From the NCBI RefSeq assembly GCF_016919245.1, contig NZ_JAFEJA010000001.1, positions 6,039,501 through 6,103,500 on the forward strand: 64,000 bases of DNA, in the 5' to 3' direction. The stretch comes from Streptomyces zhihengii (GTDB taxonomy: Bacteria; Actinomycetota; Actinomycetes; Streptomycetales; Streptomycetaceae). Positions 55,691 through 59,723 of the stretch are shown here, one piece after another; position 1 is the stretch's first letter, and each line of letters begins with the position of its first letter. The notes under the pieces are model-generated. The model searched no databases. It saw nothing but the letters and a program-made list of their open reading frames with translations, and had not been told where the DNA came from. Made by a program: the position numbers and the translations under genes.

Positions 55691-56757
55691 GGCAGATCCT
55701 GTTCGCGGGAGCCATCGGTCTGTTCCTGACCCTGATCGGGACCCCGCTGCTGATCAAGCTGCTGGCCCGCAAGGGATACGGCCAGTTCATCCGCGACGAC
55801 GGCCCGCGTACGCACGGCAGCAAGAAGGGGACGCCCACCATGGGCGGCATCTCCTTCATCCTCGCCACGCTCATCGCGTACGCCCTCGCCAAGGTGATCA
55901 CGGGTGAGGACCCGACGTTCTCGGGCGTCCTGGTCCTCTTCCTGATGGCCGGCATGGGCCTCGTCGGCTTCCTCGACGACTACATCAAGATCGTCAAGCA
56001 GCGGTCGCTCGGCCTGCGGGCCAAGGCGAAGATGGCGGGACAGCTCATCGTCGGCATCGCCTTCGCGGTGCTGTCCCTCCAGTTCGCCGACAAGCGCGGC
56101 AACACCCCGGCCTCCACCAAGCTGTCGTTCATCACGGACTTCGGCTGGTCCATCGGCCCGGTGCTGTTCGTCATCTGGGCGCTGTTCATGATTCTCGCCA
56201 TGTCCAACGGCGTGAACCTGACGGACGGCCTCGACGGTCTCGCCACCGGCGCCTCGGTGATGGTCTTCGGCGCCTACACCTTCATCGGGCTGTGGCAGTT
56301 CCAGGAGTCCTGCGCCAACGCGATGACCCTGACCAATCCCAACGCCTGTTTCGAGGTGAGGGATCCACTCGACCTCGCGGTCGTCGCCTCCGCCCTGATG
56401 GGCGCCTGCTTCGGCTTCCTGTGGTGGAACACCTCGCCCGCCAAGATCTTCATGGGCGACACCGGTTCGCTGGCGCTCGGCGGCGCGCTCGCGGGTCTCG
56501 CGATCTGCTCGCGCACCGAGTTCCTGCTCGCGCTGCTCGGCGGACTGTTCGTCCTCATCACCATGTCCGTGGTGATCCAGGTCGGTTCCTTCCGGATGAC
56601 CGGCAAGCGTGTCTTCAGGATGGCGCCGCTCCAGCACCACTTCGAACTCAAGGGGTGGTCCGAAGTCCTTGTGGTGGTCCGCTTCTGGATCATCCAGGGC
56701 ATGTGCGTCATCGTGGGTCTGGGCCTCTTCTACGCGGGATGGGCAGCCGACAAGTGA
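55687..56757 (+). CDS. mraY: Phospho-MurNAc-pentapeptide translocase MraY
   Basis: A 356-residue membrane enzyme with ten helices that makes lipid I from UDP-MurNAc-pentapeptide and undecaprenyl phosphate. Motifs: [12 protein letters not shown] (site for substrate), FLDDYIK (Asp pair), [10 protein letters not shown] and [14 protein letters not shown], then [14 protein letters not shown]. Start overlaps murF (ATGA); stop overlaps the murD GTG (GTGA). Confidence 0.97.
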
Positions 56758-58166
56758 GCGACTGGCAGGGCAGGAAGATCACCGTCGCCGGCCTCGGCGT
56801 GAGCGGCGTCAGCGCCGCGCGCGCCCTGGCCGGGCTCGGCGCGCGGGTGACCGTCGTCGACGGCGGCGACGGGGACGCGCACCGGGCCCGTGCGGCCGAA
56901 CTGGCCCCTCTGGGCATCGCGGTGCGCCTCGGCGACGCCGAGACGCTGCCCGAGGGCACGGACCTGGTGGTCACCTCGCCCGGCTGGAAACCCTCCAGCC
57001 CGCTGTTCGCCGCCGCCGCGGCCGCCGGTGTGGACGTCGTCGGCGATGTCGAGATCGCCTGGCGGCTGCGCGGCCCGGACGCGCCGCCCTGGCTCGCGGT
57101 CACCGGCACCAACGGCAAGACCACCACGACCCGGATGCTCGCCTCGATCCTGACGGCGGCGGGCCTGCGGACGGCGGCCATCGGCAACATCGGCACGCCG
57201 ATCGTCGACGTCGTCACCGGGGACGAGCCGTACGACGTCCTCGCGGTCGAACTCTCCAGCTACCAGCTCCACTGGGCACCGTCCCTGCGGGCCCACTCCG
57301 CGGCCGTGCTCAACCTCGCCCCGGACCACCTCGACTGGCACGGCTCCATGGAGGCGTACGCCGCCGACAAGGGCCGCGTCTACGAGGGCAACACCGTCGC
57401 CTGCGTCTACAACGCGGCCGACAAGGCCACCGAGGACCTGGTGCGCGAGGCGGACGTGGAGGAGGGCTGCCGGGCGATCGGCTTCACCCTCGGCACGCCC
57501 GGCCCCTCCCAACTCGGCGTCGTCGACGGGATCCTGGTCGACCGCGCCTTCACGCCCGACCGGCACAAGCAGGCGCAGGAGCTCGCCGAGGTCGGCGACG
57601 TCGACCCGCCGGCGCCGCACAACATCGCCAACGCCCTGGCGGCCGCCGCGCTGGCCCGCGCCTTCGGCGTCCCGCCCGCCGCGGTCCGCGACGGGCTGCG
57701 CGCCTTCCGGCCCGACGCCCACCGGATCGAACACGTCGCGGACGTCGCCGGGGTGGCGTGGATCGACGACTCCAAGGCCACCAACACCCACGCCGCGCAG
57801 GCGTCGCTGGCCGCCTACGACCCGATCGTCTGGATCGCGGGCGGACTCGCCAAGGGGGCCGCGTTCGACGAGCTCGTCGCGGCGTCCGCGGGGCGGCTGC
57901 GGGGCGCGGTGCTCATCGGCGCGGACCGCGAGCTGATCCGCGAGGCCCTCGCGCGACACGCCCCCGAGGTCCCGGTGGTCGACCTCGACCGGACCGACAC
58001 TGGGGCGATGTCCGCGGCGGTCGCCGAGGCGGCGGCCCTCGCCCGGCCGGGCGACACGGTCCTGCTGGCCCCGGCCTGCGCCTCGATGGACATGTTCACC
58101 GACTACAACAAGCGGGGCGAGGCGTTCGCGGAAGCGGTCCGCGCACTCGCCGCCGAGCGCGGCTGA
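56754..58166 (+). CDS. murD: UDP-MurNAc-L-Ala:D-Glu ligase MurD
   Basis: A 470-residue ligase that adds D-glutamate. The N-terminal Rossmann loop is [17 protein letters not shown], the P-loop is [13 protein letters not shown], and the C-terminus has [12 protein letters not shown] and [13 protein letters not shown] start at 56754 overlaps the mraY stop (GTGA). The intergenic gap to ftsW is 50 nt if the ATG at 58217 is used, 168 nt if the TTG at 58335 is used. Confidence 0.96.
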
Positions 58167-58216
58167 CAGCCACCGGGTCCGGCTGGCGCCGGGCACGACT
58201 GGAGGGGACAGCACCG

Positions 58217-58286
58217 ATGCCGCCCACCCCCCCCCCCCCCACCCCCCCCCCCCCCCCCCCCCCCGCGCGCCCCCCCCCCCCCCCCC
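58217..58286 (+). repeat. Poly-C tract across the expected ftsW start
   Basis: After ATG (58217-58219) and CCGCCCA come C14 (58227-58240), A, C23 (58242-58264), GCGCG, and C17 (58270-58286). The ATG has a perfect ribosome site (GGAGGGGA, 8 nt away) but is one base out of frame with the ftsW reading frame downstream, which stays open from 58167. Confidence 0.95.
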
Positions 58287-59723
58287 GCGGCCGCGGCGCG
58301 CCTCGCGGGGGCCGCACGGCGCCCCGGCGGGGTCTTGACGGGCCTGCGCGCCCCCGTAGCGGCGGGCGCACCCGCGTACGCCGGTGCGGGCCTGGCGCTG
58401 CGCAGCGGCGCCGGAGCGCGGGACGTCGCGCGTCCCAGCGCGCCGCGGGGCGGCGCGGGGGCGTCACCGGGCGGCGGGCCGGGCGGCCCCGGAGGCCCGC
58501 GGCGGCTGTTCGAGCAGGCGCGGCGCGCCTGGGACCGGCCGCTGACCGCGTACTACCTCATCCTCGGCAGCAGCCTGCTGATCACCGTGCTGGGCCTCGT
58601 CATGGTCTACTCCGCGTCGATGATCCAGGCGCTGGAGTACTCGCTGCCCGCCGCCTACTTCTTCCGCAAGCAGTTCCTCGCCGCCGCGATCGGCGCCGTG
58701 CTGCTCCTCCTGGCCTCCCGGATGCCCGTGCGGCTGCACCGCGCCCTGTCGTACCCGCTGCTCATGGGCGCGGTGTTCCTGATGGCGCTCGTGCAGGTGC
58801 CCGGGATAGGGCACGCGGTGAACGGCAACCAGAACTGGCTCTACCTCGGCGGCCCGTTCCAGCTCCAGCCCAGTGAGTTCGGCAAGCTCGCGCTGATCCT
58901 CTGGGGCGCCGACCTGCTCGCCCGCAAGCAGGACAGGCGGCTGCTGACGCAGTGGAAGCACCTGCTGGTGCCGCTGGTCCCGGTGGCCTTCCTGCTCCTC
59001 GGCCTGATCATGCTCGGCGGGGACATGGGCACGGCGATCATCCTCACCGCGATCCTCTTCGGCCTGCTGTGGCTGGCCGGCGCGCCCACCCGGCTGTTCG
59101 CCGGGGTGCTGGGCATCGCCGTCGCGGTCGGTCTGCTGCTGATCAGGACCAGCGAGAACCGGATGTCCCGGCTGGAGTGCATCGGCGCGACCGACCTCGG
59201 ACCCCAGGGCGAGTGCTGGCAGGCCGTGCACGGCATCTATGCTCTGGCCTCTGGCGGATGGTTCGGTTCCGGTCTCGGTGCGAGTGTGGAAAAATGGGGC
59301 CAACTGCCCGAACCGCACACCGATTTCATCTTCGCCGTCACCGGTGAGGAACTGGGCCTGGCGGGCACACTGTCGGTGCTCGCCCTGTTCGCGGCTCTAG
59401 GCTATGCGGGTATCCGCGTTGCCGGACGCACGGAGGACCCCTTCGTGAGGTACGCAGCCGGAGGCGTGACCACCTGGATCACGGCGCAGGCCGTGGTCAA
59501 CATCGGTGCGGTGCTAGGCCTGCTGCCGATCGCCGGAGTCCCGCTTCCGCTGTTCTCCTACGGCGGGTCGGCCCTGCTGCCGACGATGTTCGCCGTGGGG
59601 CTGCTGATCGCGTTCGCGCGGCAGGACCCCGCCGCGAAGGCGGCCCTGGCCGCGCGGAGGCCCGGGGTGAGATGGAAGTCGATGAGACGGCGCGTGAAGA
59701 AGCGTCCGTCCGGAGAGCGGTGA
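58217..59723 (+). CDS. ftsW: Division peptidoglycan glycosyltransferase FtsW (start region frameshifted)
   Basis: A SEDS-family membrane glycosyltransferase, partner of FtsI. The conserved part runs from PLTAYYLILGSSLLITVLGL with about ten helices. Key motifs: GNQNWLYLGG-FQLQPSEFGKLAL, catalytic Asp in LIMLGGDMGTAII, and PLPLFSYGGSALL. The apparent start is the ATG at 58217 (good ribosome site), but the poly-C tract leaves it one base out of frame. Within the open frame the first usable start is a TTG at 58335, with no ribosome site, giving 462 residues. The N-terminal ~55 residues in either case are Gly/Ala/Pro/Arg-rich. Coordinates assume a corrected frame. Confidence 0.85.

Follow-up and report, generated by a model that had tools for sequence, protein, structure and literature searches.

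The window, the whole stretch of 64,000 nucleotides analysed here, comes from Streptomyces zhihengii and carries ftsW, which is flanked by murD and murG and lies close to mraY and ftsZ. The ftsW product was identified with NCBIfam model TIGR02614 (380.3 bits, cut-off 337.5), and mraY, murD, murG and ftsZ all pass curated cut-offs. On the forward strand, murD lies in a mechanically called open reading frame at 56292..58166 (TIGR01087, 396.7 bits, cut-off 211.95); the model match starts at residue 162 of this frame, and the stop codon (58164-58166) is in the same frame as ftsW. The FtsW frame is open from 58167, immediately past the murD stop, and at 58338..59723 (forward strand) it encodes the remaining N-terminal extension followed by the SEDS core, which begins at 58533 and was assigned with TIGR02614 and by comparison with the core of Streptomyces sp. 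t39.

The ftsW start region as recorded

A strong Shine-Dalgarno sequence, GGAGGGGACAGCACCG, stands directly before an ATG at 58217-58219. Together (58201..58219, forward strand) they are likely to represent the genuine ftsW start, both being identical in t39, where the ATG is in frame. In the window the ATG falls at 2 mod 3 and FtsW at 0 mod 3, which places the start one base off. Downstream of the ATG lies a tract at 58227..58286 (forward strand), made up of C14 (58227-58240), A (58241), C23 (58242-58264), GCGCG (58265-58269) and C17 (58270-58286). The initial annotation had described an ATG with a strong ribosome site one base out of the ftsW frame, the tract C14-A-C23-GCGCG-C17, and an ftsW frame open from 58167 with its first start at a TTG at 58335; we confirmed these from the frame positions, base by base and from the open reading frames, respectively. 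The three C-runs of the tract are the sole homopolymers of at least 8 of any base in the window. Under a first-order Markov model, about 7 C-runs of at least 8 are expected per window, 0.01 of at least 14 and 5e-7 of at least 23. At the right edge of the tract (58287..58346, forward strand), comparison with t39 shows that homology to the FtsW N-terminus resumes (AGAARR), adjoining a strong hairpin in t39.

No ATG or GTG was found in the FtsW frame between the murD stop and the FtsW core. The earliest listed in-frame start as recorded is the TTG at 58335..58337 (forward strand), which is preceded by a G-rich stretch; this codon is not conserved in t39 and is unlikely to be the real FtsW start. 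The initial annotation had further argued from the role of ftsW as a septation gene in a tight cluster. The identity of FtsW and its neighbours bears out the description, but the need for ftsW to work is not proof of error by itself: although the gene is important for sporulation septation, null mutants of ftsW in S. coelicolor are viable (excerpts of PMC3781837).

The murD-ftsW junction in t39 and other relatives

The closest relative found was Streptomyces sp. t39 (locus L098, NZ_RDBP01000037.1), whose FtsW core is 98.0% identical to that of the window over 396 residues. At the DNA level, identity is 95.0% across murD (56800-58166), 80.2% at 58291-58500 and 97.1% at 58501-59723. Immediately before the tract the two sequences agree at 60/60 nucleotides (50/50 at 58167-58216 and 10/10 at 58217-58226). 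In the tract region itself (58227-58290), 50 of 96 alignment columns are identical and 32 are gaps. The t39 ATG opens in frame into a 510-residue FtsW that scores above the FtsW cut-off and has a 114-residue N-terminal extension. Between this ATG and the point where homology resumes, t39 has ordinary Pro/Ala-rich coding DNA, beginning MPPTTPGPTPAPSEPSGRTSGDAG, and the t39 ftsW locus contains no C or G run of at least 7. From the murD stop to the FtsW core, t39 measures 392 nt vs 366 nt in the window, being 26 nt longer and of other composition. Since the window 3' of the tract still reads like t39 (AGAARR, PAYAGAG, ARDVARPSAPRGG), the frame appears to be lost in or beside the tract. The comparison with FtsW N-termini of relatives that the initial annotation had proposed thus supports a sequence error, t39 having its ATG in frame and no tract. 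Aligned in register, 12 of 13 non-C bases of t39 are read as C in the window and one A is kept; identity between tract and t39 is 26/38 at the true register, against 22-25/38 at the other twelve offsets tried. This one kept A weakly suggests that C took the place of the t39 bases in register.

To extend the comparison, we collected FtsW loci from 61 genomes (30 loci kept), from 295 genomes of the genus (30 kept) and from named genomes (best 80 kept). A total of 138 loci were examined, including the window, and the murD end as well as the FtsW core could be placed in 123 of them with hand-written anchors (a core motif and a murD end motif) based on the window sequence. Thirteen loci were set aside for having no murD end upstream; each of these starts at a contig end, and the set contains four records twice (L012/L106, L046/L103, L059/L113, L070/L116). 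L051 and L110 were dropped when the FtsW core was not recognised. After removal of the window and duplicates the distinct loci number 115, and 114 without L029, which the script had misplaced.

An in-frame start after a ribosome-site-like sequence was present in 113/123 placeable loci. The ten loci without one include the window, four loci with an in-frame ATG and no strict ribosome site (L036, L168, L173 and L175), and L038, which has an in-frame GTG, likewise without a strict ribosome site. In three more (L123, L137 and L171) no clear upstream start is in frame with FtsW, though they carry no poly-C tract, and the misplaced L029 completes the ten. By the strict criterion of an in-frame ATG after GGAGG, 95/115 distinct loci were positive, and in these 95 the N-terminal extension varies from 40 to 387 residues, a hypervariable segment before a highly conserved core. 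The longest C or G run between the murD stop and the FtsW core is 4-7 in the 114 other distinct loci and 23 in the window; a run longer than 7 occurs at this junction in 0/114. Among 120 listed FtsW homologues, of 1415 found, Pro runs reach a maximum of 4 within the first 200 residues. A long extension rich in Ala, Gly, Arg and Pro is therefore common and the tract is not. Of the two features that the initial annotation had called unusual, the tract keeps this standing, while the Ala/Gly/Arg-rich N-terminus loses it, in-frame extensions of this kind being widespread among relatives.

Long C and G runs in the assembly and the genus

The assembly of the source strain consists of 7 contigs. On either strand it has 27 runs of at least 9 C, against 4 in t39, and 11 runs of at least 13 C at seven sites including ftsW. 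The six further sites with C or G runs of at least 13 are C1:2177874-2177907, 3228421-3228471, 3356491-3356503, 3554335-3554375, 4610524-4610536 and 6584177-6584211 (loci L039-L044). Their patterns include G21C13 (L039), G11-C-G21-C9-G9, G24-CCG-C14 and G11-CCGGGCG-C17; one site is G13 alone and one is C13 alone. A G-run lies to the left of a C-run within 7 nt at 4/6 of these sites. The ftsW site has C-runs only, with no G-then-C pair, and L040 also contains a C9-G9 step, which is the wrong order.

At L040 and L042, both flanks align to t39 as a single stretch in which t39 has no C or G run of at least 7, and the DNA between the aligned flanks differs in length (213 nt in t39 vs 115 nt at L040, and 196 vs 67 nt at L042). 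Judged by these alignments, at least L040 and L042 are likely to be assembly errors of the same kind as the ftsW tract. The flanks of L044 (tract at 1978-2012 of the locus) match two t39 contigs, far from their ends, and the break falls at the G11...C17 tract. This join may be false, because the piece to the right of the tract lies just 5.7 kb from the end of contig C1; otherwise it would represent a rearrangement. L039 gave short, weak matches only, in t39 and four other relatives. L043 has a good t39 match for its left flank only (query 1-482), and its right side matches many dispersed places. To the right of the L043 tract (query bases ~690-1080) lie dispersed repeats: of the 64 matches in the t39 genome, nearly all are on this side.

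Where lost signal is called as G, a gap is expected to take the form left-GGGG...CCCC-right, and the reversed pattern serves as a control. The pattern G10-N(0-25)-C10 was present in 44/295 genomes of the genus, our own included. In the 47 genomes with either the pattern or its reversal, forward matches outnumbered reversed ones in 42 (hand count; sign test, p = 2.5e-8), the test using direction per genome only because matches overlap. Reversed matches were more numerous in the other five (G002, G085, G151, G235 and G295). Our own genome had 29 forward and 0 reversed matches. In G236 and G159, Ns stand between the G-run and the C-run, presumably marking scaffold gaps. Of the 24 loci kept from the searches for this pattern and for runs of at least 13 C, 5 (L076, L085, L087, L096 and L097) are no more than 35 nt away from a contig end. 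The G-then-C pattern is also found in two single-contig genomes, G082 and G270, and natural hairpins may give the same order. In G212, poly-G stands near contig starts, against the simplest direction rule.

Runs of at least 13 C are widespread: 182/295 genomes carry at least one, with none in the related G153, G198, G242 and G181, 2 in G030 and 849 in G202. The highest number in a single-contig genome is 9 (G012; n = 63, hand count), compared with 11 in our own genome. Some long runs may thus be real, since single-contig genomes are among those that carry them.

Sequencing difficulty and the origin of the tract

The DNA that t39 has at this place is of a kind that resists sequencing. The first 342 nt of t39 ftsW are 85% GC. 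Between +60 and +320, four 80-nt windows of 85-91% GC fold at -30 to -38 kcal/mol whichever strand is taken, and these four show the strongest folding among the 32 sampled. Against a background of 1293 60-mers from seven t39 loci, with the tested places included, the nine windows sampled between +75 and +195 of ftsW all fall in the lowest 0.2-3.2% of energies, and the window at +60 at 13%. The tract edges at L042 and L044 coincide with hairpins of 15-20 pairs in the lowest 0-1.1% of background energies, in windows picked after viewing the alignments. At L044, our own sequence becomes G or C runs at the points where the two t39 flanks run into hairpins of 15-18 pairs; at L040 there is a strong t39 hairpin, not at the tract edge. 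In the best 80 named loci, a contig end lies at most 220 nt upstream of the FtsW match in eight, from eight differently named strains (L101, L103, L106, L113, L116, L142, L144 and L149). The full 2000 nt upstream are missing in 9 of these 80, and the 2000 nt downstream are complete in 80/80. Where contigs break at ftsW, their ends show no initial C-run.

We consider it very probable that the ftsW C-tract is a sequencing and assembly artefact with no counterpart in the genome. Close relatives lack the run at the corresponding place, other runs of the assembly have G on the left and C on the right (4/6 sites; 29 vs 0 matches), and contig ends, folding and GC content all point to DNA that is hard to sequence. 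On this comparative evidence, the true ftsW most likely starts at the ATG at 58217 and continues in frame through a Pro/Ala/Gly/Arg-rich extension of some 100 or more residues into the core.

The initial annotation had preferred an error in the assembly or consensus, and this preference holds; its more specific idea of a one-base homopolymer miscount does not, the whole tract standing in place of t39 coding DNA. Homopolymer length errors are common, and a small change in length would restore the frame, but a genomic C-tract off by one or two bases is very unlikely here: there is no tract to miscount in t39 or in the other comparable loci, and the t39 segment exceeds that of the window by 26 nt and differs in composition. 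It is most improbable that the tract is real and inert, with FtsW translation beginning at the TTG at 58335 or at some other codon downstream. The open FtsW frame and the G-rich stretch before the TTG would suit such a start, as would the three other loci that likewise have no clear in-frame upstream start. Against it, the TTG is not shared by t39, the Shine-Dalgarno sequence and ATG are, in frame, and the majority of distinct loci (95/115) have an in-frame ATG.

The initial annotation had also raised the possibility of a real tract that renders ftsW phase-variable through slippage. On this reading, slippage on the C-runs would move the ATG in and out of frame and so switch sporulation septation on and off. 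Such a switch is possible in principle. In S. coelicolor, as few as 8 consecutive G suffice to switch pglX at 1e-2 to 1e-4 (excerpts of PMC4365076), and the loss of ftsW is tolerated (excerpts of PMC3781837); the one-base frame offset here, and runs of a length at which slippage can occur, would suit this reading. We nevertheless reject slippage, giving it hardly any credence. The tract occurs in no other comparable locus, even one 97% identical downstream, and long runs recur at six other sites of the same assembly. No tract of varying length is conserved at this junction in the 114 distinct relatives, where C or G runs stay within 4-7. Moreover, slippage alters length and does not swap unrelated coding letters, and three neighbouring runs of 14-23 ought to be highly unstable. 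The literature searched yielded no report of a phase-variable Streptomyces ftsW, and the match that was retrieved concerned Neisseria. Equally improbable, in our judgement, is a genuine tract that arose recently in this strain, replaced part of the hypervariable FtsW extension and acts as a hypermutable septation switch.

Given a false tract, loss of signal within reads is its probable origin. Short reads on the minus strand, entering from the right, would lose signal in the very GC-rich, hairpin-rich DNA of the N-terminal region. The lost signal would be called as G on the minus strand, and consensus building, polishing or gap closing would then write C on the plus strand, leaving a sequence of the wrong length and hence in the wrong frame. 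In two-colour chemistry, loss of signal is read as poly-G (excerpts of PMC13218037), and we infer that two-colour Illumina chemistry was used and that the Cs were placed by polishing or gap closing. No pertinent report of poly-G errors in Streptomyces assemblies was found in the literature searched.

In our judgement the ftsW tract is not a real biological feature, and as biology the locus is ordinary. Its importance is as a case of data quality, in which a spurious tract in a Streptomyces assembly obscures where a core division gene starts. A G-run followed by a C-run provides a simple flag for sites to be checked before a frameshift, a pseudogene or a phase-variable gene is called.

Compared with known systems, the gene corresponds to the FtsW (SEDS) of the Streptomyces mur/fts cluster in its core, its neighbours and its start region, and once the tract is counted as an error no difference is left. 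With the pglX G-tract of S. coelicolor it shares a G/C homopolymer in a Streptomyces coding frame, but excerpts of PMC4365076 describe 8 G, observed switching and length variants in sequenced strains, whereas the relatives of the ftsW locus are without a tract. The tract may also be likened to the poly-G read ends of two-colour sequencing (excerpts of PMC13218037): in both cases long G/C runs without a genomic counterpart stand beside DNA that is hard to sequence. Such poly-G is normally confined to reads and trimmed, whereas here it has apparently entered the deposited consensus and broken a gene.
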